From Bdellovibrionales bacterium GWA1_52_35 (GTDB lineage Bacteria > Bdellovibrionota > UBA1018): DNA of 64,000 nt. Under the pieces are notes generated by a model. It was not told the origin of the DNA and searched no databases. It worked only from the letters and a program-made list of their open reading frames with translations. Positions 48,068 through 63,998 of the stretch are shown in pieces. The DNA is taken from assembly GCA_001769805.1 (NCBI GenBank), contig MEPO01000032.1, positions 124,001 through 188,000 of the forward strand. Reading direction: 5' to 3'. The first letter of the stretch is position 1; every line of letters starts with the position of its first letter. The translations under genes were made by a program, and so were the position numbers.

Positions 48068-48529
48068 TTACGTTTTACAGCACCGGTCTTTAAGTGTGGT
48101 CAGATCCAGATCATCCAGGAAATCTTCAAACTGATCAATCAAAGTCAGCATCCGGTTACTCCCCAGTTCATCATCCGGCAAATCACGGATCTCCTTCAAA
48201 GTCTGGAAAACTCTCATACGATAATCAGCCAGATCCTGGCAGATTCGCGGTCCCAAGCTTCCGGGAAGAAAATAACGATCAAGCCGGGTCAACGCCTTCT
48301 GGCTTTCCTGGTCCAGCTGATTGCAGATCTCCGCGTGTTTTGAATTCAGAAAACAGGCATTGGCCACTTCGTGCATTTTCCTGAACTGGGCCAGAACTTC
48401 ACTGGTCTGCTCATGAACCCTCGTAAGACATTGTTCGCGGGTTTCGGTTCTTACCGTCAGGCGATAAACCACTCCGGAAGTCGCCGTGAGCACCGCCAGA
48501 CTGAGCAAGATCCATTTTCTTGGGTTCAC
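48068..48529 (-). CDS. hypothetical protein with N-terminal membrane anchor
   Basis: MNPRKWILLSLAVLTATSGVVYRLTV then helical, Cys-containing region; overlaps the start of the operon neighbour. Confidence 0.6.
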   Translation of the reverse strand: MNPRKWILLSLAVLTATSGVVYRLTVRTETREQCLTRVHEQTSEVLAQFRKMHEVANACFLNSKHAEICNQLDQESQKALTRLDRYFLPGSLGPRICQDLADYRMRVFQTLKEIRDLPDDELGSNRMLTLIDQFEDFLDDLDLTTLKDRCCKT

Positions 48530-49989
48530 AGGGCGGGCTTCTCTGGAAGGATTTCGGCGCGTTCTATTTCAGCAATAAACGCCCGATCCCCGCGCAGGGT
48601 GATTGTTTTCAATAGATTCCCGGTCAGCCGTGCTTTGGCTGCGGAGGGCTCGCCCAGAATACTATAAACCTTCAATTTCCAGGCTGAACCCGTGAGGGGC
48701 AACTGCACCGAAATTTTCTCGGTGCGAAGGTCCCGGGATCTTCCGGTCTTGTCCTTGACTTCCATCGGCAGCGAACTTCTGAGCCAACCAGTCAGAATGA
48801 AATTACCATTCTTCTTTTCGAAAGCATGCACCACACTCTGGGAGGCTGCAGGGCGATTGACTTTCAGCTGTGAAACCGGCCTTACGGGCTGGTCAAAAAG
48901 ACGATTGTAGAGTTTCAGCGCGGAGAAAGCAGGTTTCTTTTGACCTTTCGTATCGAGCAGGCCGAGAAAGCGGTTATTCGCGTCTCCGATCACCACCTCA
49001 TTCGTCGGCAGATCACGCGTCCGATACCAGGTCGTGAGCGAAACGTTATCCGCTGCACGCGCCAGCACATGATGCTTCCAGAGGGAGACTGCCTGGTAAA
49101 TCGGTGTGTGCTCGTAATCATAGACGGCTTCGACCCACTCCGAAACTTTCCGGTCTGACAGTCTGAAATTACTGTAACCGAACTCCGCAAGCCAGAGATC
49201 ACTGGAAGCGCGCGTGTCTTTCATCAGATCACGAACATCCTGAAGCCTCTGAGGATAACTTTCCGCAGGAGTCCCGTCCCAGGTTTCAAGATAACCGTGA
49301 ACGCTGACCACATCAAAAAAAGAACCGAGCGCGAATTTGTCCAGAAGCTCTTCGAGAAACGGGCCTCTCGCCTGAGCCATCCCCCCGATCACGAGACGGG
49401 CTGCAGGATCAGCCCGCATCACCGCAAAAGCGCCTTCCCGGATCATCTGAGCAAAAAGTGAAACATCACCTAACCAGTAGTATTCGTTATCCGGTTCATT
49501 CCAGAGTTCCCACGAAGGAACCTTTCCTTTGTAACGCTTGGCGATTGCGAACATGAAATCGGCAAACCGTCGGAGATCCTTCGGCGGATTGCGCCAGTGG
49601 TCGTCGGGGTTTTCAGGATCAGAATTCAGCCACGCCGGCGTGTAGCAGACGTACGGCAGAATCGTCACACCATACTGGGGTGCCAGGCGAATCAGGTCAT
49701 CCCAGTGTCCCCAATTGTATTTTCCAGGCACCTGCTCGATATCCGTCCAGGCAATGCCTACACGCAGGAACTGCACGCCCATTTCTGACAAGAGTTTCAA
49801 ATCTTCACGAATCCGCCCGGGCGGCGTCGATCTTTGCGGGTAATCTTCGGCAACACCGGCAGGTTGAAAATAAAATCCCTGCGAATCCTGCTGCAGCGTC
49901 CTGGAAGGGAGAACCCAAGCAGCTGAAACGAGGACCGAGTTCAAGCCGAGCGCGGCCAAAATAAAGACGCGAAATAGTGGATTAATCAA
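48526..49989 (-). CDS. secreted glycoside hydrolase-like protein (GH39/GH5-type TIM barrel, canonical order)
   Basis: LRVGIAWTDIEQVPGKYNW...WELWNEPDNEYYWLGD...VVSVHGYLETWDG...DLWLAEFGYSNF. Confidence 0.78.
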   Translation of the reverse strand: MINPLFRVFILAALGLNSVLVSAAWVLPSRTLQQDSQGFYFQPAGVAEDYPQRSTPPGRIREDLKLLSEMGVQFLRVGIAWTDIEQVPGKYNWGHWDDLIRLAPQYGVTILPYVCYTPAWLNSDPENPDDHWRNPPKDLRRFADFMFAIAKRYKGKVPSWELWNEPDNEYYWLGDVSLFAQMIREGAFAVMRADPAARLVIGGMAQARGPFLEELLDKFALGSFFDVVSVHGYLETWDGTPAESYPQRLQDVRDLMKDTRASSDLWLAEFGYSNFRLSDRKVSEWVEAVYDYEHTPIYQAVSLWKHHVLARAADNVSLTTWYRTRDLPTNEVVIGDANNRFLGLLDTKGQKKPAFSALKLYNRLFDQPVRPVSQLKVNRPAASQSVVHAFEKKNGNFILTGWLRSSLPMEVKDKTGRSRDLRTEKISVQLPLTGSAWKLKVYSILGEPSAAKARLTGNLLKTITLRGDRAFIAEIERAEILPEKPAL

Positions 49990-50131: not shown

Positions 50132-50941
50132 TTGAGCTTTCTCAAACACATTTCCAAAGTACTTGTCGTTGCCGCCCACCCCGATGACGAAACCATCGGA
50201 GCCGGGGCACTTCTGCGCGGAATCAGCAGTAATGTCCGCATCATCCATATGACAGATGGCGCCCCGCGCAACGGTCTCGATGCGACGGCCTTGGGCTTCG
50301 CAACCGTCGCGGCTTACGCTCGAAGGCGGCGATCGGAATTGGAACGAGCCGTGGGCGAAGCAGGCATCCGCCCCAGGCAACTCACTCATTTTGGAATTCC
50401 GGATCAGGAACTCACGCATTGCCTTCCCGAGGCCATTCAAAAATTGCGAACTCTCATCGAGGAATTTGCTCCCGCGGTGATCCTGACCCATCCCTATGAG
50501 GGAGGCCATCCTGATCACGATTCAACCGCTCTTGCGGTCTTCATCGCAACCGCTCTCGTTGCCCAAACTTGTCAGCGGCCCCCTATGGTCGTTGAGTTCA
50601 CGTCTTATCATGCAAAAATAGCGAATGCGGCAAGCAAGCACCGCGAAATGGAAACAGCAACCTTCCTTCCTGTTACAACATCTCCGGAATTCACCCTCAC
50701 GCTAAGCACCGAAGAACAGGTCCAGAAATGCCTGATGTTTGCGCATTTCGAAACCCAACGCGAAGTCCTGAAAAATTTTCAGGTATCGGTGGAGAAGTTC
50801 CGGCGCGCCCCGAGCTATGATTTCACCCAGGCTCCGCATCCAGGTCCGCTTTTCTATGAGAATCATCCCAGGGCCTGGACTTGGGGAATGACTGGAAAAA
50901 AATGGCGCCAGAAAGCCGCGGAAGTTCTCCCATGTCTCTGA
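50132..50941 (+). CDS. PIG-L/LmbE family deacetylase
   Basis: KVLVVAAHPDDETIGAGALLRGI; THPYEGGHPDHDSTA. TTG start. Confidence 0.9.
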   Translation: MSFLKHISKVLVVAAHPDDETIGAGALLRGISSNVRIIHMTDGAPRNGLDATALGFATVAAYARRRRSELERAVGEAGIRPRQLTHFGIPDQELTHCLPEAIQKLRTLIEEFAPAVILTHPYEGGHPDHDSTALAVFIATALVAQTCQRPPMVVEFTSYHAKIANAASKHREMETATFLPVTTSPEFTLTLSTEEQVQKCLMFAHFETQREVLKNFQVSVEKFRRAPSYDFTQAPHPGPLFYENHPRAWTWGMTGKKWRQKAAEVLPCL

Positions 50942-51996
50942 CCATTCTGAGTGTAGCGTATCCCTTTTCGCCCGTCAGCCGCCACTCCGTCGGAGGTGCG
51001 GAACAGATTCTGGCGCAGCTGGATGAGTTTCTCGTGAAAAACCAGCACCGCTCCCTCGTGCTTGCCGAAGAAAGCTCTGAGATAGCGGGCACACTTCTGC
51101 CGCTGAAAAAATGTCCGGGACAAATCACCGGAGCCGCTCGGGAAGAAATATATTCAGAAACCCGGTTGAAAATCAAATGGGCTCTCGAGAACTGCTCCGT
51201 CGATCTCCTTCACTTTCACGGTATTGATTTTCACCAGTATCTTCCTGTTTCCGGGCCGGGCTCCCAGGTTCCCGTGCTGGTGACCTTGCACCTGCCACTG
51301 AGCTGGTATCCCAAAGACGTATTCCAAACGAGCAGAGCCAATGTATTCTTCCAATGTGTTTCAAGTTCGCAGCTGGCCACCGCGCCAAAAATGCCCGGAC
51401 TCGTGGGCTTCATTGAAAACGGGGTTTCGCTTCCGCTACGGAGATCCCGGCACCATGCTTTTGTTCTGAGCATGGGGCGCATCTGCCCTGAAAAAGGTTT
51501 TCATCTCTCCCTGGATGCCGCGCGCAAAAGCGCTGCCCCCATGCTGCTGGCGGGCAAAGTTTTCCCTTACGTTGCGCATCAGGAATATTTTCGTACCGAG
51601 ATTCTGCCCCGACTGGATCAGCAACGACGCTTCATCGGCCCGGCAGAAAACGACCGCAAACAGACTCTGCTTTCCTGGGCGCAGTGCCTTTTGATTCCCA
51701 GCCTGGCGCAGGAAACTAGTTCCCTGGTGGCGATGGAAGCGCTTGCTGCGGGCACGCCGGTCATCGCCTTTCCGAATGGCGCACTGCCGGAGGTGATTGA
51801 GGATGGTCGAACGGGCTTTCTCGTCAAGAACACCGATGAGATGGCCCGTGCAATTGATCAGTGCCGAGGGCTTGACCCCGAGGTCTGCCGAAGAGTGGCT
51901 CGTGAACGCTTCTCTTCGGAGCGCATGGCACGGAGTTATCTCGAACTTTATGAAAAGGTGACAAATGCAGATCCGGGTGATCTCCAGCTGCAGTGA
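50932..51996 (+). CDS. glycosyltransferase (GT4-like)
   Basis: VLSMGRICPEKGFHLSLDAARKS; LIPSLAQETSSLVAMEALAAGTPVIAFPNGALPEVIEDGRTGFLV. Confidence 0.9.
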   Translation: MSLTILSVAYPFSPVSRHSVGGAEQILAQLDEFLVKNQHRSLVLAEESSEIAGTLLPLKKCPGQITGAAREEIYSETRLKIKWALENCSVDLLHFHGIDFHQYLPVSGPGSQVPVLVTLHLPLSWYPKDVFQTSRANVFFQCVSSSQLATAPKMPGLVGFIENGVSLPLRRSRHHAFVLSMGRICPEKGFHLSLDAARKSAAPMLLAGKVFPYVAHQEYFRTEILPRLDQQRRFIGPAENDRKQTLLSWAQCLLIPSLAQETSSLVAMEALAAGTPVIAFPNGALPEVIEDGRTGFLVKNTDEMARAIDQCRGLDPEVCRRVARERFSSERMARSYLELYEKVTNADPGDLQLQ

Positions 51997-52963
51997 ACTC
52001 GAGGCGATGACTGAGCCGTGGTTCGAACTTCTGCAGCGAAGCCGTCGGGCCACGCCCTTCCAGGCCCCTGAGTGGCTGCTCCCCTGGTGGCATCATTTTG
52101 GATCAGGTAAGCTGAATGTGCTGGTCTTCGAAGACAGAGGGGTCCTCGTGGGACTCGCCCCGCTCTGCCTCGCTGAAACCCCGGATGGTCCGACCGTCAC
52201 TCGCTTCATCGGCACGGGAAATACCGATTATCTCGACCTGCTGGCTAAAGCGGGTCACGAAGAAGTAGTGCTTGCGGAGTTTTCAAAATATATAGCAGAA
52301 ATGCGCCGCCATTCGCGGGCCGGTTTTGATTTTCAGGAACTTCGAGAAGAGGCGCTCGCCACCTCCCTTGGTCCGAAGGCAGTTCAGGAAGTCTGTCCGG
52401 TCGTACCTCTTCAGAACACCTCGACATGGGAGGACCTGAGAGATGTCTGGAGCGCTGGGCTTTTCACAAAACTTCAGAAATACCGGCGGCGTCTGGAACG
52501 GGAAGGCACGGTTCAGTATGAAGCTGTTTCTGAAAAAAACTTCAGCATTCTTTTTGAGACGATCGTCACTTTGCATCAGAGGCAATGGGGACAATGGAAG
52601 GAAGGCGTGCGCACGGATGTCGGGGTATTTGGAAATGAAAAATCAATTCTCTTTCACCGGGAGGCGGCTCAGGGGTATTTGAAGAAAGACTTGCTTCGTC
52701 TTTACTGTCTCAGCCTGAACGGCGTTCGAATCGCAGCAATATATGGATTCGTGCATCACCGAAGGGCGTACTATTACATCAGTGGCTTTGATCCACTTTA
52801 TGCACAGTTCAGCCCGGGCAGTCTGATCATAGCTTATGCAATGGAACAGGCCGTGAAAGGAAAAATCCAGGAATTCGACTTCCTGCGTGGTGCTGAGCCT
52901 TACAAGTATCGCTGGGGGGCAGTGGACCGGCGGAACTACCGGATCCTCATGCCACCTTTCTAG
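51965..52963 (+). CDS. CelD/BcsL-like GNAT acetyltransferase
   Basis: SRRATPFQAPEWLLPWWHHFG; RIAAIYGFVHHRRAYYYISGFDPLYAQFSPGSLIIAYAMEQAVKGKIQEFDFLRGAEPYKYRWG. Confidence 0.85.
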   Translation: MQIRVISSCSELEAMTEPWFELLQRSRRATPFQAPEWLLPWWHHFGSGKLNVLVFEDRGVLVGLAPLCLAETPDGPTVTRFIGTGNTDYLDLLAKAGHEEVVLAEFSKYIAEMRRHSRAGFDFQELREEALATSLGPKAVQEVCPVVPLQNTSTWEDLRDVWSAGLFTKLQKYRRRLEREGTVQYEAVSEKNFSILFETIVTLHQRQWGQWKEGVRTDVGVFGNEKSILFHREAAQGYLKKDLLRLYCLSLNGVRIAAIYGFVHHRRAYYYISGFDPLYAQFSPGSLIIAYAMEQAVKGKIQEFDFLRGAEPYKYRWGAVDRRNYRILMPPF

Positions 52964-53004
52964 GCTTCTGGAGAATTAGCATTCCAATTGCAAACTGTTC
53001 GGCC

Positions 53005-54864
53005 ATGAAGCTGGTGATTTTTGGGCTCTCGATCAGCTCGTCGTGGGGCAATGGTCACGCGACGCTCTGGCGCGGGCTTTGTCGGGCGCTGGCCCGCCAG
53101 GGTCACACGGTCGTGTTTTTTGAAAAAGACGTTCCGTACTATGCCTCCCATCGCGACAAAACCGAGCCTGACGGCGTGCGCCTGGTGCTCTATCGCGACT
53201 GGAATGAGATCCAGCCACTCGCTCGCCGGGAGCTCGATTCGGCAGAGGTTTCGATCATCACTTCGTACTGCCCGGATGCGCTTGCCGCGACCCAGCTCCT
53301 GCTTGATTCAAAAGTACGGCTCCGGGTTTTCTATGATCTTGACACTCCGGTCACCTTGGAGCGCCTCGCCCAGGGTTTACCCGTCGAGTACCTTGGCGAA
53401 GACGGATTAAAAAATTTCAATCTGGTCCTCAGTTACACGGGAGGGCGGGCCCTGACTGAATTGAAAGAAAAACTCGGGGCAAAAAGGGTCGCACCTCTCT
53501 ACGGCAGCGTGGATCCGGAGATCCATTTTCCGGTACAACTCCAAGATAGTTTCAGGGCGGATCTTTCCTACCTGGGAACTTACGCGGCAAACCGTCAGAA
53601 GGCTGTCGAGCTACTTCTGCTGGAACCCGCGCAGCGGCTTGCGCACCGGCAATTCCTGATCGGTGGCTCCATGTACCCCCAGGATTTCCCTTGGAAACAG
53701 AATATTTTTTATCGTTCCCATGTTCCACCTCCGGAGCACGCGGCCTTTTACTGCTCCTCCCGTCTGACTTTGAACATCACCCGCTCCGCAATGGCTCTCA
53801 TGGGCTACTGTCCTTCAGGACGACTTTTTGAATCGGCCGCCTGCGGAGTGCCGGTACTCAGTGACACCTGGGAAGGCTTGGACCAGTTCTTTGTTCCCGG
53901 TAAAGAAATCATTCTCGCGGAAACTGCTGATCAGGCTGTGAATGCCATAGAACTCTCAGACCGCGAGCTGCAGCAAATTTCCAAAGCCGCCCGCGCGCGG
54001 ACGCTCACCCACCATACGGCCGAGATTCGCGCGCAGGAACTGGAGCGGATTCTGGATGCCGCAACCCGGCCTTGCGTGCCGTCCATATCCAAAGCCGCCT
54101 CTGCTCGAGACATCGAACTCCGCAATGAGCGGACCGTCTGGGGAATCATTCCCGCTGCCGGTGCGGGTACGCGCATCCAGCCACTGGCCTTTTCCAAAGA
54201 GCTACTGCCCATCGGCAGTTATCAGGACTGCGAAACGGAACGACCCCGCGCGGTCAGCGAATTTCTGATCGAACGAATGGTGTTGGGAGGTGCGACCCGG
54301 CTCTGCTTCGTCATCTCACCCGGTAAAAACGATATTATCTCCTACTACGGAGGATCTTACGGACCGGCTCAGATCTGCTACACAGTCCAGCCGAAACCCG
54401 CCGGCCTCTGCGACGCGCTTTTCCGGGCCGCGCCCTTCGTTCGGGCAGATGACCTCGTTTTGGTAGGCCTCCCCGATACAATCTGGTTTCCTGAAGAGGG
54501 CTTTCATCTTCTGCATAATCGGATGCTATCTTTTCTGCTCTTCCCCGTGGAACACCCGGAGTACTTCGATGCCGTCGTTCACGACGAGAAATCACGCGTG
54601 ACAGAAATCCAGGTGAAGAAAAAAGACGCAAGCTCCACGTGGGTTTGGGGCGCGTTCAAATTGCCGGGAGAGGTCTTTCATCGCCTTTATCACCTCTGGT
54701 GCGAACGCGGCAAAAATGACGAATACCTCGGAACCCTCGTGAACGCTTATATCGCCGAAGGGGGAGAAGTTGTTGCCTCACGATTCGGAACAACTTATTC
54801 CGATGTCGGAACCCTGCACGGGTACCGCGAGGCGGTAACGGTCCTGCAGAAGCGGGCCGGCTAG
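53005..54864 (+). CDS. CgeB-like glycosyltransferase fused to a sugar nucleotidyltransferase (RmlA-like) domain
   Basis: N-term MKLVIFGLSISSSWGNGHATLWRGLCRALARQGHTV...ESAACGVPVLSDTWEGLDQFF; C-term WGIIPAAGAGTRIQPLAFSKELLPIG. Confidence 0.88.
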   Translation: MKLVIFGLSISSSWGNGHATLWRGLCRALARQGHTVVFFEKDVPYYASHRDKTEPDGVRLVLYRDWNEIQPLARRELDSAEVSIITSYCPDALAATQLLLDSKVRLRVFYDLDTPVTLERLAQGLPVEYLGEDGLKNFNLVLSYTGGRALTELKEKLGAKRVAPLYGSVDPEIHFPVQLQDSFRADLSYLGTYAANRQKAVELLLLEPAQRLAHRQFLIGGSMYPQDFPWKQNIFYRSHVPPPEHAAFYCSSRLTLNITRSAMALMGYCPSGRLFESAACGVPVLSDTWEGLDQFFVPGKEIILAETADQAVNAIELSDRELQQISKAARARTLTHHTAEIRAQELERILDAATRPCVPSISKAASARDIELRNERTVWGIIPAAGAGTRIQPLAFSKELLPIGSYQDCETERPRAVSEFLIERMVLGGATRLCFVISPGKNDIISYYGGSYGPAQICYTVQPKPAGLCDALFRAAPFVRADDLVLVGLPDTIWFPEEGFHLLHNRMLSFLLFPVEHPEYFDAVVHDEKSRVTEIQVKKKDASSTWVWGAFKLPGEVFHRLYHLWCERGKNDEYLGTLVNAYIAEGGEVVASRFGTTYSDVGTLHGYREAVTVLQKRAG

Positions 54865-54869
54865 CCTGA

Positions 54870-55400
54870 ATGCGGCGGAATTGGAACTGGATCGGCCCCT
54901 TGCTTGCGATCGGCGGACGAATTCCAGAAGAACTGAATTGCAGATGGGAATTGCTGGGTGAAGGTATCAGCCGCGTCATTGATCTTCGCGATCTTCGCGC
55001 TGAAACGCAGCCCGAATGGCTGCCTGGCGTCGAACTGCTGCACCTTCCCACTCCGGACCACCAGCCGATTTCGCAGTCGATGATTTGGCAAGGCGTCCAG
55101 TGGACGCGCAAGGCGTGGGAAGCGAATCTGCGCGTCTTGATTCATTGCGAACATGGAATCGGGCGCTGCGCCCTGCTCGCAGCCTGTGTCCTGGTCAGCG
55201 AAGGCGCCTCGCCCACGGAGGCGATCCGCGAACTCAAGCAGGTGCGCTCCTGCATCGCCCCCTCTCCGGTGCAACTTCATGCACTGCTTGCCTGGGCTGC
55301 CTCCTGGAATCAGTCGCAGGGAAAACCGCCATCTACCGACACCTGGGCGGCTCTTTCCCGAATTGCCTACCTCGGCATCACATCTGTGAACAGACCTTGA
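54870..55400 (+). CDS. dual-specificity/tyrosine phosphatase-like protein
   Basis: CX5R motif in LIHCEHGIGRCALLAACVLV; VIDLRDL upstream; Asp-containing loop. Confidence 0.75.
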   Translation: MRRNWNWIGPLLAIGGRIPEELNCRWELLGEGISRVIDLRDLRAETQPEWLPGVELLHLPTPDHQPISQSMIWQGVQWTRKAWEANLRVLIHCEHGIGRCALLAACVLVSEGASPTEAIRELKQVRSCIAPSPVQLHALLAWAASWNQSQGKPPSTDTWAALSRIAYLGITSVNRP

Positions 55401-55460
55401 AGACAGCCGCAGCTGGTCTTTCTTTTGCACCCCGCCCCTCGTCCTTCTGGAGGGAATTTC

Positions 55461-56411
55461 ATGAAAGCTTCCGTTTTGACCGGTCCGAGACAGATGCGTG
55501 TGGAAAATGTCAGTTTACCGGAGCCTGGGCCCGGAGAAGTCCGCTTGAAACTGGAAGGCTGCGGCGTTTGCGGCTCCAATCTGGCGTCGTGGGTGGGAAT
55601 GCCGTGGACCCAATATCCCCTGGCCCCCGGCGCGCTGGGACATGAGGGCTGGGGCCGGGTTGACGCAATTGGCTCGGGTGTCACAGGAATCAAAAAAGGT
55701 GACCGTGTTTCGGCGCTTTCCGATCATGCGTTTGCAGAATATGACATCACGCGAGCCGATCGCGTCGTGCCCCTTCCACTCGACATGAAGGATTTTCCGG
55801 GTGAAGCCGTGGGATGCGCGATGAATATCTTCCGCCGCAGCAAAATCAGCAAAGGTCAGACGGTTGCAATCGTAGGCATCGGCTTTCTCGGAGCGGTGCT
55901 GACCCGCCTGGCAGAAAGAGAAGGCGCGCGCGTAATCGCGATTTCCCGCCGTTCCTTCTCTCTGGAAGTTGCCCGCAAAATGGGAGCGGCAGAAGTCATT
56001 CCCATGGATGATCATTACAAAATCATCAACCGCGTCAAAGAGCTCACGGACGGTCTCTTCTGTGACCGCGTAATCGAAGCCATTGGCCAGCAATGGCCTT
56101 TGGACTTGAGTGCGGAATTGACCCGGGAACGCGGCAGACTCATGATTGCAGGCTACCATCAGGATGGCCCCCGGCAGATCAATATGCAACTCTGGAACTG
56201 GCGTGGCCTCGATGTTGTCAATGCCCACGAGCGCGATCCAGAAGTCTATATTCAGGGGATACGGGACGCCCTGCAGGCGATCCAGACGGGACGCATTGAC
56301 CCGACTCTCTTATACACGCATCGCTATCCGCTTGAGCATCTGGACGAAGCGTTGAATGCCAATCTCGAAAGGCCCGAAGGCTTTCTAAAGGCGCTGGTGA
56401 CTTATGATTAA
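55461..56411 (+). CDS. MDR-family zinc-binding alcohol dehydrogenase-like
   Basis: GEVRLKLEGCGVCGSNLASW; GALGHEGWGRVDAIGSGVTGIKKGDRV; VAIVGIGFLGAVLTRLA. Confidence 0.88.
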   Translation: MKASVLTGPRQMRVENVSLPEPGPGEVRLKLEGCGVCGSNLASWVGMPWTQYPLAPGALGHEGWGRVDAIGSGVTGIKKGDRVSALSDHAFAEYDITRADRVVPLPLDMKDFPGEAVGCAMNIFRRSKISKGQTVAIVGIGFLGAVLTRLAEREGARVIAISRRSFSLEVARKMGAAEVIPMDDHYKIINRVKELTDGLFCDRVIEAIGQQWPLDLSAELTRERGRLMIAGYHQDGPRQINMQLWNWRGLDVVNAHERDPEVYIQGIRDALQAIQTGRIDPTLLYTHRYPLEHLDEALNANLERPEGFLKALVTYD

Positions 56412-57420
56412 ATCAAAACCAAGATTGGGCTTTCTCGGAACGGGTTGGATCGGTCGCCATCGCATGAAGAAAATCATCGAAAGTGGCGCGGCGGAAGCAG
56501 CGCTGATCTATGATCCGCACTCGGAGAGTCTTGCGGAGGCGTTAAAAGAGGTCCCCACAGCCAGCCCTGCGGACAGCTATGATGATTTCCTCAGCTCGGA
56601 CCTGGACGGGATCGTGATTGCCACACCCAGTGCACAGCATGCCGAGCAATCGATCCAGGCGCTGCAAGCCGGTTACGCCGTTTTTTGTCAGAAGCCCCTC
56701 GGCCGGACGGCCACGGAAGTGAAGAACGTGGTGGCCGCCGCGAAAAGTACGGACACTTTCCTCGGAGTGGATTTTTCTTATCGTTATACGGAAGGCATGA
56801 AGCGAATTCATTCGTTAATCAACGAAGGCGAGATCGGTGAGATCCACGCAGTGGATCTGGTCTTTCACAATGCCTACGGCCCGGATAAGACCTGGTTTTA
56901 CGACCCCAAGCAGTCGGGTGGCGGTTGTGTGATGGATCTGGGCGTTCACCTCGTGGATCTGGCGCTCTGGTGCCTGAATTTTCCAAAAATTCTCGAATCC
57001 TCCAGTCGCCTGTTCACAGGCGGAAAGCCCCTCGTGAACGAAACCGAACAGGTCGAGGACTTTGCGCTGGCTCAACTCGACTGCGCCGGCGGAACCACCT
57101 TCCGCCTTGCCTGCTCCTGGCGACTCCCCGCTGGTTGCGACTGCGTGATCTCCGCGGATTTTTACGGTTCAAAGGGCGGCTTGAGCTTCCGAAGCCTGAA
57201 TGGATCATTTTACGACTTCATTGCGGAACGCTTCCGTGGCACCGCCCGAGAGGTGCTCTTTCAGGCGGCTCCTCCGGGAATGGATCCCCCAGCAGAAGAC
57301 TGGGGCGGTCGCGCTGCCGTCGCTTGGGCGAAACGCCTGGCCGAGGGAACACGTTTTGACCCCAGCTGCGAAAACTTGATCACGGTTGCCGGAGTACTCG
57401 ATCGGATCTACCGGCGCTGA
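56404..57420 (+). CDS. Gfo/Idh/MocA-family oxidoreductase
   Basis: RLGFLGTGWIGRHRMKKI; VIATPSAQHAEQSIQALQAGYAVFCQKPLGRT; GGGCVMDLGVHLVDLALW. Confidence 0.92.
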   Translation: MIKSKPRLGFLGTGWIGRHRMKKIIESGAAEAALIYDPHSESLAEALKEVPTASPADSYDDFLSSDLDGIVIATPSAQHAEQSIQALQAGYAVFCQKPLGRTATEVKNVVAAAKSTDTFLGVDFSYRYTEGMKRIHSLINEGEIGEIHAVDLVFHNAYGPDKTWFYDPKQSGGGCVMDLGVHLVDLALWCLNFPKILESSSRLFTGGKPLVNETEQVEDFALAQLDCAGGTTFRLACSWRLPAGCDCVISADFYGSKGGLSFRSLNGSFYDFIAERFRGTAREVLFQAAPPGMDPPAEDWGGRAAVAWAKRLAEGTRFDPSCENLITVAGVLDRIYRR

Positions 57421-58004
57421 GCGATAGTACCGAACTGAGGCCCCCTCTCACTCAAATACAGGGTCGTGATCGAAATCGGCGGGATCTCGATGCGCAGGAG
57501 ATTTTCGAGCGGTGCACCCAAGAAATGCATGATCGTCGAGCGTAGAATATCGGAGTGACTGAAAACCACAATCACCTGTCCCAGTCGAGACAGCCGCAGT
57601 TTTTCCAGCTCCGCCACGGCACGCAGCTGCACACCAAGCAGAAATTCCCCGCCAGGGATCTGGATGCTGCTGCGAAAGCCATGAAAGTTTCGCCATTCCG
57701 GAACCGCAATCAGTTCCTCTATGCTTCGTCCGGTCCAGTCTCCGTAATCCACTTCCGTGAAGGCTTCCGAAATTTGAATCGGAAGATTCCGTGCTCTCGC
57801 TAAAGGGCCGGCGGTCTCCCGGGTCCGCTCCAGGGGGCTTGAATAAATGGCATCCATCTTTTGCCCTTGTAGAACTGAGACGAGTTCTTCCGCCTGCACT
57901 CGTCCCTCTTGGTTCAAATGAATTCCGGGGCGTCGCCCTGCCAGTTTTATTCCCACATGGTCGCAGATGCCATGCCTGATCAGCAAAAACGTGGTGGTAA
58001 CCAT
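57408..58004 (-). CDS. histidine phosphatase family (phosphoglycerate mutase-like)
   Basis: MVTTTFLLIRHGICDHVG; SSPLERTRETAGPLA; VIVVFSHSDILRSTI. Confidence 0.88.
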   Translation of the reverse strand: MVTTTFLLIRHGICDHVGIKLAGRRPGIHLNQEGRVQAEELVSVLQGQKMDAIYSSPLERTRETAGPLARARNLPIQISEAFTEVDYGDWTGRSIEELIAVPEWRNFHGFRSSIQIPGGEFLLGVQLRAVAELEKLRLSRLGQVIVVFSHSDILRSTIMHFLGAPLENLLRIEIPPISITTLYLSERGPQFGTIAQRR

Positions 58005-58885
58005 TAGTTGGGAACGTAGCGTTCCAGAACCGCTCTCGCGAACCCGGCAAAATCCGACGCCTCCAAGGGAGGACTCGTATGGTCCGGCCGTTTCCCTCGG
58101 GAAGGAGGCGTGAAACAAAGAGTGATCGTCAGATCAAAATCAGCGAGCGCCTGCATCTGCCGATCAAACCAGTCGAGCGCATTCGGCCGATGCCAGTCCG
58201 CCCAGCTGATGCCAGTTCTGAGCTTCTTCACGCCCAGGCGTTTGAGCCAGTCCACCGCAAAATCCAGGCGGGGATCCTCGTAATGAAACCACTGGCAGAT
58301 TCCCATCTCAGGATCGAAGACTTCAACCGCGGGCTTGGGCGTGCCATCATGACGAATCAAACCCATATAAAAATGCCGGTAATAGGAACTTCCTTCGTTT
58401 TCCTTATGCCGGGTTGTGGCACCCCAGGCCGGGGGCAGATCCAAAAGACTGTACCAGAAAATTCGCTCGGATTTTCCTGCAAGAAGCTCGAAGGTCTTCT
58501 TCAAACCAAACGTCTGAACCTCATCGGCGCCAAAACTCGAGACACCCACCTCGGTGATCCAGACAGGCTTGCCGGAGACCTTCTGAATACCTTCGAGTTT
58601 TTCGGGCCATTCTTCCAGGCGCCAATGATTCCAGTCCAGAGGAAAACCGTGAATCGCGACGATATCCACGGCGTCCAAAACGCCCTGTCGCTGCATCCGG
58701 TGGACAAAGGCCGGATCAATCGGAGACATTCCCCCGAGGACAATTGGCATATGAGGTCTGACTTTGCGGATTTCCCGGGCACCGAGGATGGTCATCTCGG
58801 AGAAATCCTTCCACTCCGGATCCAGCTCAAAATCCCAGTGTGAAAGGTTGTTCGGCTCGTTCCAGATCTTGATCGCTTCGATCAT
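58004..58885 (-). CDS. glycoside hydrolase-like protein with apparently permuted TIM-barrel order
   Basis: Starts MIEAIKIWNEPNNLSHWDF, ...WITEVGVSSFG..., then LGVKKLRTGISWADWHRPNALDWFDRQMQALADFDLTITLCFTPPS and ends FARAVLERYVPN. ATGA overlap with upstream methyltransferase. Confidence 0.72.
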   Translation of the reverse strand: MIEAIKIWNEPNNLSHWDFELDPEWKDFSEMTILGAREIRKVRPHMPIVLGGMSPIDPAFVHRMQRQGVLDAVDIVAIHGFPLDWNHWRLEEWPEKLEGIQKVSGKPVWITEVGVSSFGADEVQTFGLKKTFELLAGKSERIFWYSLLDLPPAWGATTRHKENEGSSYYRHFYMGLIRHDGTPKPAVEVFDPEMGICQWFHYEDPRLDFAVDWLKRLGVKKLRTGISWADWHRPNALDWFDRQMQALADFDLTITLCFTPPSRGKRPDHTSPPLEASDFAGFARAVLERYVPN

Positions 58886-59694
58886 AGGCGCTCCTGTCGG
58901 GATTCTCCGGTTGCACTCGCCCACTCTTCCTCTTCCCAGATGCGCCGCTTCCGGACACCTTGCGCAGGCGGTTCGCAAAAATAAACTTCGTGGGTGATTC
59001 GTTTTATTTTTTCAAAACCTGTAGAACGGAGCTGGGCCTCCACTGCCGCATGATTCGGAACCCACCAGTTGGTTGCATCGTTGGAATAGGACTTTTCAAT
59101 GAAAGCCATCTTCGGCCAGCCCCGTTCATTGAAGATCTTCCGCTCGGTGATCGGGTAATCATCTTTGGTCGGAAAGTTCGGGAGTTCTTGCGCCGGGTCT
59201 TCTGTCGTGAGGGTTTGAAAAACCATGAGCTTGTTCACTTTTTCGGCCACGGTATCCAGCGCCAGGGTGGGATAGCGCAGATGGTAAAAAACTCCCATGA
59301 ACAAGACGAGATCAAATTTCTCCGAAGTGCGCGCGAGATCATGAATCTGCATCTGGCGGAATTCCGGCTGATGCCGGAGGTTTCCTCCGAGCTGTCCGGC
59401 AATCCAGCGGGCCTGCGAAAGGTAAAGGGGCTCCGAATCGATGCCCAGGACCCGCCCGCCCCTTTTTGCCAACTCAAAGCTGTAGAAACCGGCGTTGCAA
59501 CCGATGTCCAGGCAACGCCAACCGGTAAGATCCTGCGGAATCGCGTCCGCGATTTCCACCCATTTTCGCAACGGAAAATCTCCCAGGAAATGTTCGGGTG
59601 CGGTCTGCACTCCTTCGCTGAGATGGAAATTATGAAACCAGGGACCGAGTCGCTCTATCGCCTGACGTAATTGTCTGCTTGTTTCAGTTTCCAC
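58882..59694 (-). CDS. SAM-dependent methyltransferase (CmoB/DUF1698-like)
   Basis: WRCLDIGCNAGFYSFELAKRGGRVLGIDSEPLYLSQARW; DLVLFMGVFYHLRYPTLALD. Confidence 0.85.
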   Translation of the reverse strand: METETSRQLRQAIERLGPWFHNFHLSEGVQTAPEHFLGDFPLRKWVEIADAIPQDLTGWRCLDIGCNAGFYSFELAKRGGRVLGIDSEPLYLSQARWIAGQLGGNLRHQPEFRQMQIHDLARTSEKFDLVLFMGVFYHLRYPTLALDTVAEKVNKLMVFQTLTTEDPAQELPNFPTKDDYPITERKIFNERGWPKMAFIEKSYSNDATNWWVPNHAAVEAQLRSTGFEKIKRITHEVYFCEPPAQGVRKRRIWEEEEWASATGESRQERL

Positions 59695-60797
59695 GATTTG
59701 TTCCTCGCTGAGTCATTGACGCTCTTTCGATTCAGGGCGTCGCGGAAATGCTGCTGCAACTCACACGCGCGATGAGCCGCAGTATGGGAATTCAGAATCC
59801 TTTTTCGGGCCCGCTCACCTATTGCAAGGCGCTCCTCTTCGGAGATTCTGCGAAGCATCCGGTTCACATCGTCTGTATGCCGCGCGATCAGGATTTCCAG
59901 ACCGGGCTTGAAGAGCAGTTCTAGTCCAGACCAGTAATCAGATATAATCGGCGTCCCGCAAGCCGCGGCTTCGAAAAGTCGGACGCTCGGAGAGTGGCCG
60001 GCCCGAATCATGTTTTTACGGGTGACATTCAGGGTGAACCTGAGTGCATTGTAAAAATCGCGATGCGCCGAAGGAGGCAGATGCTCCACATGCTTTACGT
60101 TTTTTCCCCAGTCCAAGGCTCCTGGAAACTGCGCCCCTGCCACGATAAAGTGCCCCTCGGGCCAATTTCGCGCAGGCTCGAGCAGCAGAGTTTCGAGCGT
60201 CGGCTGGCGGTCAGGACTGTACGTCCCAAGGTATCCGAGATCCCAGCTGCTCTCGCCTTTTTGCGGATAATAGTGCAGTGGATCCACCGAACAAAAGAGA
60301 GGACGGGCCATGGGCGATCCGAATTCTTTTTCAAGGCGCTGGAGGGTGGGTCCTCCCGTGAAGGAGAGATAGAGCTGATATCTGGCGACAAGTTCCCGGG
60401 TCAGGTATTCACAGGAACCGAGACCAATATGAGCCAGGGTCTCAGGGGTATCGATGTCGTAGAAAACGGAAAGTCCCCGCGTGTTTTTGGTGACCCAATC
60501 GCCAAGTTCAATCCCCTCCGGAACAAAAGAGCCGACAATCACGGCATCGGCTTCCCGGATACTCCCGGTAAACCGGTCCTTGAATTCCTCCAGCGTCGAA
60601 TAGAGTTCCGTTCGCCCATAGGGAGGAGCTGGAAGGTCCCGGTGCGCGGAGTACCAGGGACGGTCACGTTCGAGGAATAAAACTTCATTACCATTGGCCA
60701 CCAGCTCCTTGACCAATCCCCGATAAGTGGTTGCATGACCATTCCCCCAGGAGGAGGTGATGGACAGACCGCAGATCACGATTCGGAGTGGTTTCAT
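59655..60797 (-). CDS. CgeB-like glycosyltransferase
   Basis: LRIVICGLSITSSWGNGHATTYRGLVKELVANGNEVLFLERDRPWYSAHRDL; RLFEAAACGTPIISDYWSGLELLF. Confidence 0.85.
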   Translation of the reverse strand: MKPLRIVICGLSITSSWGNGHATTYRGLVKELVANGNEVLFLERDRPWYSAHRDLPAPPYGRTELYSTLEEFKDRFTGSIREADAVIVGSFVPEGIELGDWVTKNTRGLSVFYDIDTPETLAHIGLGSCEYLTRELVARYQLYLSFTGGPTLQRLEKEFGSPMARPLFCSVDPLHYYPQKGESSWDLGYLGTYSPDRQPTLETLLLEPARNWPEGHFIVAGAQFPGALDWGKNVKHVEHLPPSAHRDFYNALRFTLNVTRKNMIRAGHSPSVRLFEAAACGTPIISDYWSGLELLFKPGLEILIARHTDDVNRMLRRISEEERLAIGERARKRILNSHTAAHRACELQQHFRDALNRKSVNDSARNKSWKLKQADNYVRR

Positions 60798-61858
60798 GTT
60801 TTCCTCAGCAGATTGTCCACTAAGGCGGCACGATGGTCATAGGTATGCTTGGCAATGACCTTTCGATAGGCCGCAGCACCGATTCGTCGCGCGCGATCCG
60901 GAGTGAGTGCTTCAAGATGAGCGATCAATTCATCACCGCTGCCCGCGACCAGGACTTCCTTACCCGGTTCGAAAAAGTAATCGACACCTTTCCAACGATC
61001 GGTAATGAGACAGGCCTCCGCACCCGCCGCTTCAAATACCCGGGTGGGCGGCGAATACCCGTAACTCACCATGCTCTCCCGATTCAAATTGAGAACCGTC
61101 CGAAGGCTGGAATTAAAGGCGTTGTGTTCATGAGTGTAAATATGTCCGAGATATTTCAGATTGGATGGGAGTTCTTTATCGGCCCACCCGTTTCCCCCGA
61201 GCAGAAAATCTGAGTTGGGCATCTGGCGGACTGCATGAAAAAAAAAGTCGTCCACCCGCTTTTCGCGGTCCGGCATGCGATTTCCGAGAAACCCCAGCAT
61301 TCCTTCAAACCGGGAGTCAGCGGCGACGCGGTAATGAGTGGAGCAATCCAGCGCGTTGTACACCGGAACACAGGCACTGGCTCCGAGTTCCTCGTACTCC
61401 CGGACAACGGGATCACCACCGCCGTAAGTGAAGATCAGATCGTATTGCGGAATGAGCGAACGAAAAGGATCTCTTGGATTCAGATTCATGCGATCCAGCG
61501 TAGCCGGCGCATCCACATCCCAGAAAACAACACGGCGGCCCTCTTTCTTAAAATCAAGAACACGGGCCTCCAGTTCTTCGTCATAGACGCCGACCCCACT
61601 GGCTTTGACAATCAGGTCAGCATCCCTGGCACTTTCCAGGGCGCGTTCCAGCCCCAGGCGGTCTGCCGGCCAGACATGCACTTTCGCCCACTCCGGATCA
61701 GTAATATCCCGGTTCTTCTGCCGCTCATAGGCATCTGGTTCATAGAAGGTAATCTCATGTCCTCGCGCCGCCATCGCCCGGAGCAAGCCGCGATAATAGG
61801 TGGCAGCCCCGTTCCAGTAAGCAGAAACCAGACTCGAGCCAAAAAACGCCCATTTCAT
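60794..61858 (-). CDS. CgeB-like glycosyltransferase
   Basis: MKWAFFGSSLVSAYWNGAATYYRGLLRAMAARGHEITFYEPD; RVFEAAGAEACLITDRWKGVDYFFEPGKEVL. Confidence 0.85.
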   Translation of the reverse strand: MKWAFFGSSLVSAYWNGAATYYRGLLRAMAARGHEITFYEPDAYERQKNRDITDPEWAKVHVWPADRLGLERALESARDADLIVKASGVGVYDEELEARVLDFKKEGRRVVFWDVDAPATLDRMNLNPRDPFRSLIPQYDLIFTYGGGDPVVREYEELGASACVPVYNALDCSTHYRVAADSRFEGMLGFLGNRMPDREKRVDDFFFHAVRQMPNSDFLLGGNGWADKELPSNLKYLGHIYTHEHNAFNSSLRTVLNLNRESMVSYGYSPPTRVFEAAGAEACLITDRWKGVDYFFEPGKEVLVAGSGDELIAHLEALTPDRARRIGAAAYRKVIAKHTYDHRAALVDNLLRKT

Positions 61859-62949
61859 AAAATAAATTCCCCGAATTCCTGCTCCGCAACCACCTGGGTC
61901 CGCGACTTTTCGTTCTGAAGTGATCGCACCCAGTGCTCCAGGCTCTGAATTCCCTGTTCAAGCGAAGTGACGGGCCGCCAGCCGGTCATCCGGGTGAATT
62001 TGCCGTGATTGGAAACATAGTACCGCTGGTCTGAAGGTCTCCATTTTTCGTACTGGATACTCAGCCGAACACCTTGGAGCTTTTCCAGAAGCGATACGAG
62101 TTCAAGCAAGCTCGTCGTGTTTCCGGGACCTCCGCCGATCGTAAAGGCGTGGCCGCGAATCTTCGCGCTGTTCTGACGCGCCATCAGAAAGGCTTCGACC
62201 AGATCCTCGACAAAAAGTGCATCACGAACCTGCTTGCCGTCACCGTAGAAGCTCAGCGTTCTGCGGGCCATGGCTTTTCTGACGAAGTGTGCGACCCAGC
62301 CCTGGTCCTCATTCCCATACTGATGAGGACCATAAATACAGCTCATCCGGAAAACGACCGCGGGTATATTGAAGTTTCTCGCGTAATCCAGAACGTACTG
62401 GTCAGCAGCACCTTTGGAGCAACCATAGGGACTGCAGAATTCGATACTGCGGTCCTCACCGATTCCCTCGAGCATACCGAGATTTTCTTCAGCCGGCTCG
62501 TATCGGGTCGCCCGCTCCACCAGCTTGACGTCTTCGAGTCCACCGAGAACTTTATTCGTGGAGGTGTAGAGCAGAAAGGGCTTCTCGGATCTTTCATCTG
62601 TAAGCTTTCGCCTCCGGATGGCTTCCAGAAGATTCAGAGTGCCGCGAGCATTGATTTCAAAATCCGTGATGGGATCCTCAAGGCTTGTGGTGACCGCAAC
62701 CTGCGCCGCCAGGTGATAGATGGCAGTGGCGCCTTCGACGGCGTCCTGGAGCTGCTCCATATCCCGAACATCGCCTTGCACAAAACTCACTTGCCCGGGA
62801 TGGTGATTCAGAAGATAAAAAAGATTCTTCTCCACGCCAGCGCGGGATAGGTTATCGAAGACCAGAACTTTATGTCCCTCCTCGGCCAGGCGTTTGGCCA
62901 GATTAGTTCCGATAAATCCCGCCCCCCCGGTGATCAATACGTAGCTCAT
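61855..62949 (-). CDS. NAD-dependent epimerase/dehydratase (extended SDR)
   Basis: VLITGGAGFIGTNLAKRLAEEGHKVLVFDNLSR; YGCSKGAADQYVLDYARNFNIPAVVFRMSCIYGPHQYG. Confidence 0.92.
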   Translation of the reverse strand: MSYVLITGGAGFIGTNLAKRLAEEGHKVLVFDNLSRAGVEKNLFYLLNHHPGQVSFVQGDVRDMEQLQDAVEGATAIYHLAAQVAVTTSLEDPITDFEINARGTLNLLEAIRRRKLTDERSEKPFLLYTSTNKVLGGLEDVKLVERATRYEPAEENLGMLEGIGEDRSIEFCSPYGCSKGAADQYVLDYARNFNIPAVVFRMSCIYGPHQYGNEDQGWVAHFVRKAMARRTLSFYGDGKQVRDALFVEDLVEAFLMARQNSAKIRGHAFTIGGGPGNTTSLLELVSLLEKLQGVRLSIQYEKWRPSDQRYYVSNHGKFTRMTGWRPVTSLEQGIQSLEHWVRSLQNEKSRTQVVAEQEFGEFIL

Positions 62950-63998
62950 ACCGCAAGTCCTTTCACTGCGAGCTCTTCACGGGCTTCCTGGGTGCGATCC
63001 ACGGCTCTTTGTCCGGCGAGCCACTCGATGAGCTCCCGCATTCCGCTCTCCATGGAGACACGTGGTCGATAGCCCAAAAGCGTTCGGGCCAGACTGATAT
63101 CCGCGAAGCAGTGCCGGATATCCCCGACTCGGTACTGTCCGGTAATTTCCGGAACGAGGTGCGGCTTGCCCATCGCTTCGGCCATGCGCAGCGCGACCTC
63201 TTGAATGGTGATCTGCTCACCACTTCCGATATTGAAGGCGTGATCAACAGCCTGCGGTCCTTCAAGCGCAAGACGGCAGGCCTGCACTACATCAGAGACG
63301 TGAACGAAATCCCGCATCTGCTTGCCATCCTCAAAAATGCTCGGCGTCTTCCCGTTCAAAAGCCGCGAGGCAAAAATGGCCATCACACCGGTATAGGGAT
63401 TCGAAAGCGACTGCCCGGTCCCATACACGTTAAAAAACCGCAGGGCAACCGTAGGAATCCGGTAAGTTCTGCCCATGAGCAGGCACATCATTTCCTGATC
63501 GTATTTCGAAAGCGCATAGATGGAGGCAAGGTCGGGCCTTTTGCTTTCGGGCGTGGGGAGAGCCGATAAACTTTCACCTTCGGCGCCCAAAGGTTCCCAT
63601 TCTTTTTTCTTAAGTCTCTCCAGCGGGCGCCGCGTCTCAAAATGCACCCGGCCATCAGCGCTCTTGTAAAGCCCCTCACCATAGAGACTCATACTGGAAG
63701 CCACGACCAGACGTTCCACCGGATTTTCAATCAGAAGCTGCAGGAGATTCGCCGTACCGAGCGTGTTGTTTTCCACGTAAGAGTGGACTTCGTACATGCT
63801 CTGGCCGACGCCCACGGAGGCAGCGAGATGATAAACAGCGTCAACATCCCGCAGCGCATGCTTCAGATGGGCTCGCGTTCGCACATCACCTTCGATGACT
63901 TCAATATTCTCAAACTGATCGGGGATTCGACTCGATTTGCCATGTACCTGGGCCGAAAAATTGTCCAGAACCCGCACAGTGTATCCGCTCCGTACCAA
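62946..63998 (-). CDS. NAD-dependent epimerase/dehydratase (extended SDR), N-terminus beyond right edge
   Basis: LVRSGYTVRVLDNFSAQVHG...VYHLAASVGVGQSM...YALSKYDQEMMCLL; the GxxGxxG start is missing, so the gene continues past 64000. Confidence 0.9.
   Translation of the reverse strand: MVRSGYTVRVLDNFSAQVHGKSSRIPDQFENIEVIEGDVRTRAHLKHALRDVDAVYHLAASVGVGQSMYEVHSYVENNTLGTANLLQLLIENPVERLVVASSMSLYGEGLYKSADGRVHFETRRPLERLKKKEWEPLGAEGESLSALPTPESKRPDLASIYALSKYDQEMMCLLMGRTYRIPTVALRFFNVYGTGQSLSNPYTGVMAIFASRLLNGKTPSIFEDGKQMRDFVHVSDVVQACRLALEGPQAVDHAFNIGSGEQITIQEVALRMAEAMGKPHLVPEITGQYRVGDIRHCFADISLARTLLGYRPRVSMESGMRELIEWLAGQRAVDRTQEAREELAVKGLAV

Follow-up and report, generated by a model that had tools for sequence, protein, structure and literature searches.

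A circularly permuted, clan GH-A-like glycosidase encoded in a widespread glycoside gene cluster, and its unpermuted SDR-fused counterpart

The gene at 58004–58885 on the minus strand of the window (the whole 64,000-nucleotide stretch of Bdellovibrionales DNA analysed here) encodes a clan GH-A-like glycosidase of 293 amino acids, starting with ATG at 58885, in which the order of the barrel strands is circularly permuted; very probably, its product is a complete and catalytic barrel. Translation of the minus strand yields a protein that opens with MIEAIKIWNEPNN, containing Glu10, and proceeds through DIVAIHGF and VWITEVGVSSFG, containing Glu112, to GVKKLRTGISWADW and LTITLCFTPPS, before ending in FARAVLERYVPN, which reproduces exactly the order of motifs described in an earlier, sequence-only reading of this DNA. 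Residues 1–188 (58322–58885, minus strand) span β4 to β8 and a short α8, which in a canonical barrel make up the C-terminal two thirds, and residues 189–293 (58007–58321, minus strand) comprise β1-α1-β2-α2-β3-α3, which is the canonical N-terminal third, now placed at the C terminus. The window also offers an unpermuted comparison in a separate minus-strand gene at 48526–49989, coding for a GH39-like protein with a hydrophobic, signal-like N terminus, whose sequence confirms the canonical motif order ascribed to it. This gene lies 8 kb from the permuted one, and its family occurs also in Bacteroidota.

Both ends of the permuted gene are interlocked with its neighbors. The stop codon of the upstream methyltransferase gene overlaps the start codon as ATGA (58882–58885, minus strand), and the TAA stop overlaps the ATG of a histidine phosphatase gene (58004–58002) as TAATG. 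The start codon keeps its position in 82 of 86 related loci (ATG in 71, GTG in 11); in three of the other four the match begins one residue later, and the fourth had been read in the wrong orientation. Where the methyltransferase gene is the upstream neighbor, the overlap measures exactly 4 nt in 33 of 54 loci. Since the start position and the overlaps are shared across related loci, the permuted N terminus is a conserved feature; from the ATGA overlap, the earlier reading had judged that it looks genuine.

The sequence-only reading had proposed a circular permutation and named alignment of the rotated against the native sequence, structure prediction and a search for homologues with the same order as ways to check it. 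A profile of unpermuted relatives was compared with all 293 rotations of the protein. The native order scored 125.8 bits over model positions 117–300, versus 202.5 bits over positions 12–297, as a single domain, for the best rotation, which starts at residue 187 (approximately 187–191). Shuffled sequences scored below zero or gave no match, and unpermuted members that had been withheld from the model peaked at their native start or a few residues away. All 54 homologues examined peak at rotation 186–192, with gains of 54.8–86.6 bits against the profile of unpermuted relatives and 25.5 to 53.8 bits against a model of canonical GH domains; for the fused (see below) and canonical unpermuted controls, any rotation adds at most about 1.6 bits. 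Profile–profile comparison with hhalign gave a corresponding result: the native profile aligns with the canonical GH profile in two pieces of swapped order, with 208 columns (score 192.6) and 111 columns (score 85.9), whereas the rotated profile forms one alignment of 277 columns (score 261.3, E = 4e-37). On the fused GH model, the native profile occupies the swapped segments 121–325 and 15–120, and the rotated one a single piece at 15–301 (E = 3e-62), with 277–279 columns aligned across both comparisons and every motif staying in register. The two swapped segments thus jointly cover one homologue with its termini joined, which is what defines a circular permutation.

It is very improbable that the protein instead belongs to another barrel family, in which NEP- and TE-like motifs come in a different order by coincidence. 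In Pfam, the protein reaches no family cut-off, even when rotated, as would suit such an origin, but coincidence would account neither for a rotated profile that aligns in one piece, with its motifs in register, to canonical and fused GH domains alike, nor for a bit gain that every homologue shows at one rotation point only.

An AlphaFold2 model calculated from the alignment of the 54 homologues (pLDDT 86.3, pTM 0.88) predicts a single, complete barrel of eight strands in permuted order, barrel closure being judged from the strand count and the confidence of the model. The strands are located at residues 4–7, 48–53, 75–80, 108–113, 142–145, about 196–197, 221–227 and 251–257, each followed by a helix, which gives eight predicted strand–helix units; the loop at residues 155–167 has low confidence. 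Mapped onto a canonical barrel, the strands run β4 to β8 and then β1 to β3, and the model excludes a complete non-permuted barrel. Because of this order, in place of the canonical β1–β8, we describe the protein as a permuted, GH-A-like variant rather than as an ordinary clan GH-A member. The chain ends would thus have been shifted from before β1 and after β8 to a point between α3 and β4, with the old ends bridged by a short linker at about residues 185–196; the chain would open a few residues ahead of β4, which carries the candidate acid/base Glu10, the candidate nucleophile Glu112 would lie on β7, and β1–β3 would complete the barrel at the C terminus. A Foldseek search of the PDB matched GH10, GH53 and GH2 enzymes over part of the chain (approximately 160–225 columns of sequential alignment), in line with expectation for a permuted barrel, and also returned weak matches over the whole barrel to designed barrels and to unrelated ones. 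In a viral library, one GH5-like phage protein was matched.

An assembly artefact, or a recent local rearrangement that displaced the 3′ portion of an ordinary glycosidase gene, has a practically negligible probability. The sole point for it is that the order of motifs is unusual within the superfamily. In species genomes, a pattern search detected at least 541 encoded relatives, and the best 80 of these match across nearly the whole length at 62–75% identity and come from Bdellovibrionota, Myxococcota, Pseudomonadota, Chloroflexota, Verrucomicrobiota, Planctomycetota, Fibrobacterota, Acidobacteriota, Gemmatimonadota, Nitrospirota and others. The gene is present on complete plasmids of Sinorhizobium, Azospirillum, Paracoccus and Roseomonas, so that the same order recurs in independent finished assemblies. 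We therefore exclude an artefact, since hundreds of homologues and complete plasmids share the order and, besides, the start codon and the gene overlaps are conserved across related loci. On pSymB of Sinorhizobium meliloti 1021, a laboratory model strain in which they would be readily accessible to genetics, the permuted gene and its cluster are found at about 257 kb. Among phage records, none was found to carry the permuted gene.

The predicted active site has the layout of clan GH-A enzymes. Glu10 is situated in an NEP-like motif (WNEPNN) at the end of β4 (codon at 58856–58858, minus strand) and Glu112 in WITEVG at the end of β7 (codon at 58550–58552, minus strand), where they would serve as general acid/base and nucleophile, respectively. 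The two align with positions 139 and 250 in the chain of PslG, the Pseudomonas aeruginosa GH39 endo-β-glucanase of Psl biosynthesis, which by a constant offset of 26 correspond to Glu165 and Glu276, the acid/base and the nucleophile of that enzyme (PMC11912335). Glu10, Glu112, His79, Trp144, Tyr145 and Arg223 are invariant among the 54 homologues, and the two candidate catalytic residues put forward in the sequence-only reading are thereby corroborated. PslG is the best match by sequence in the PDB (2.6e-6, with the family profile). It resembles the permuted protein in the aligned glutamate pair and in being encoded in a biosynthetic locus, and is itself a retaining glycosidase; it differs in its canonical strand order and in belonging to another cluster, and the match is limited to about β4–β7. 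Neither the native nor the rotated sequence has a match above cut-off to any family in Pfam and NCBIfam scans, and neither matches the GH39 model PF01229; the similarity to PslG is thus a lead rather than a family assignment. Public annotations call the protein a beta-xylosidase, a glycosyl hydrolase or hypothetical; the name β-xylosidase is a putative one that derives from annotation alone.

The catalytic pair points to a retaining, double-displacement activity, and since the chain opens directly with a core strand and carries no signal peptide, the protein is probably cytoplasmic. We read it as a probable retaining β-glycosidase or transglycosidase, active in the cytoplasm, which might trim or remodel an intermediate of an oligosaccharide or glycoside pathway. 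A non-catalytic sugar-binding or scaffold protein would fit a gene that resides within a biosynthetic cluster, and the catalytic role is so far putative; we nevertheless consider this reading improbable, because Glu10, Glu112, His79, Trp144 and Arg223 have been kept invariant in 54 homologues across many phyla, unlike the decayed domains of the same superfamily that are present in the same clusters.

The cluster around the permuted gene is of a recurrent type. The upstream operon partner (58882–59694) is a methyltransferase of the TIGR04290 family (319.8 bits, cut-off 300), which is present in 54 of 63 long related loci. Further upstream on the same, minus strand follow two CgeB-like glycosyltransferases (59655–60797 and 60794–61858) and two SDR epimerase/dehydratases, SDR2 (61855–62949) and SDR1 (62946–63998). 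SDR2 is a stand-alone protein here, and has homologues elsewhere with an N-terminal unpermuted GH domain. Downstream, the minus-strand histidine phosphatase gene (57408–58004) has been listed as an open reading frame at 57408–58118, with a TTG within the permuted gene as its first codon; the ATG at 58004 is the likelier start. Genes for a Zn alcohol dehydrogenase and a Gfo/Idh oxidoreductase (55425–57420, plus strand) are recurrent cluster members, and the pathway genes also include a mycothiol-type inositol-3-phosphate synthase and sometimes a TIGR04295 radical SAM protein. At 53005–54864, a single gene joins a CgeB-like glycosyltransferase to a sugar nucleotidyltransferase; two adjacent matches are frequent at related loci, as if each part had a gene of its own. 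A widespread glycoside cluster, represented by the window at 50132–63998 and by a long series of related loci (L008–L090), contains the TIGR04290 methyltransferase, a TIGR04295 B12-radical SAM protein, the mycothiol-type inositol-3-phosphate synthase, LmbE and FemAB proteins and CgeB glycosyltransferases. A literature search on the NCBIfam names TIGR04290 and TIGR04295 found no relevant paper, nor did one on S. meliloti locus tags estimated from map position.

An unpermuted counterpart is encoded in the same type of cluster. In the plasmid search, proteins from Rhizobium and Geminicoccaceae matched the permuted protein in two pieces; they are fusions of about 680 amino acids, in which an N-terminal GH domain of canonical order is followed by a C-terminal SDR homologous to the stand-alone SDR2 of the window. 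An example is WP_012760324.1 of Rhizobium leguminosarum WSM1325, annotated as NAD-dependent epimerase/dehydratase, with approximately 33% identity over the two swapped pieces. Clusters with the fusion and clusters with the permuted gene both carry SDR1, SDR2, a GT4 glycosyltransferase and CgeB-like ones, and many of them also share the TIGR04290 methyltransferase, the Zn alcohol dehydrogenase and the Gfo/Idh oxidoreductase. The fusion thus has in common with the permuted gene its catalytic pair and its setting among the methyltransferase, SDR and CgeB genes, but differs in its β1–β8 order, in the attached SDR2 and in being often catalytically decayed where a permuted gene also occurs. Most clusters with the permuted gene, the window included, have an SDR2 without GH domain. 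With this counterpart, the proposed permutation is supported by four lines of evidence, i.e., the rotation scan, the profile comparison, the AlphaFold2 model and an unpermuted relative in the same cluster type.

In a tree rooted on canonical GH domains, the permuted proteins form one clade (support 100/99), sister to the clade of the fused domains (support 98/94). The canonical order of the outgroups implies that the permuted order is derived, and a single origin is the simplest reading of the sequences. Permutations of this kind are usually explained by tandem duplication followed by fusion and trimming, and the permuted form probably arose in this way, once, from an ancestor of canonical order. 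As permuted and fused domains are sisters, a descent from the fused domain itself would be conjectural.

The fused domain has frequently lost its catalytic residues, and neither this nor the unpermuted fusion had been foreseen in the sequence-only reading. In nine of the ten genomes that have both forms, the fused domain lacks the acid/base or the nucleophile glutamate; in the tenth (G289), both are kept. Of the genomes in which only the fused form was found, 8 of 11 keep an intact pair; in the other three, all Myxococcota, the fused domain is decayed and no permuted copy was found. In three cases (L044, G595 and G604), one cluster contains both the permuted gene and the decayed fusion, and decayed fusions were recorded at nine loci in genomes with the permuted gene. 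The nucleophile is replaced by Ala or Ser, and the acid/base by Pro, Ser, Asp or Ala. Loss of the fused glutamates is associated with the permuted gene (Fisher p = 0.0075) in rows that are phylogenetically related; on the tree, three changes suffice under parsimony, and a test of independent pairs gave two pairs in the same direction, none in the opposite one and three undecided, with significance out of reach at this size. The variety of the lesions does suggest more loss events than parsimony counts. A strict dependence of decay on the permuted gene was not upheld after correction for the tree.

Given an association that is not significant after tree correction, our data are suggestive of a replacement, with less certainty than attaches to the permuted catalytic barrel: the permuted enzyme would have taken over catalysis from the GH domain fused to SDR2, and the fused domain would then have decayed or been lost. 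A division of labor, with the fused domain recruited for binding or for regulation of the SDR as a partner of the permuted enzyme, is a less probable though still sizeable alternative. It is favored by the decayed fused domains that are still full-length in Myxococcota, Bacteroidota and Planctomycetota, and is opposed by the different lesions and long branches of several decayed copies, as under relaxed constraint, and by the absence of a fused GH domain from SDR2 in most clusters having the permuted gene, including that of the window. On balance we lean slightly toward the full account, in which a GH-A-like barrel was permuted once, spread over at least ten phyla and displaced the catalysis of its unpermuted homologue in the same pathway, leaving an SDR-fused, decaying pseudoenzyme. 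If true, living genomes would hold all stages of the process, from an active fused domain, via a decayed fused domain next to the permuted enzyme, to the permuted enzyme with the SDR alone.

Few reports exist of natural circular permutation in TIM-barrel enzymes. Among glycosidases, the cases found belong to clan GH-H: permutation is established in GH70, where the glucansucrases and GtfB-type glucanotransferases are naturally permuted TIM-barrel enzymes with unpermuted family relatives, and has recently been reported in GH13 (PMC11299179). The GH70 and GtfB-type enzymes are large, multidomain, extracellular members of the α-amylase-type clan, whereas the protein described here is compact, single-domain, GH-A-like and lacks a signal peptide; a literature search, outside CAZy and subscription journals, found no report of a permuted clan GH-A-type enzyme. 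Curated family models miss such proteins, as illustrated here by Pfam and NCBIfam, and searches aware of motif order could reveal further permuted enzymes. Since permuted and unpermuted forms occur in one pathway context, they allow a direct test of how the permutation affects folding, activity and fusion to a partner.
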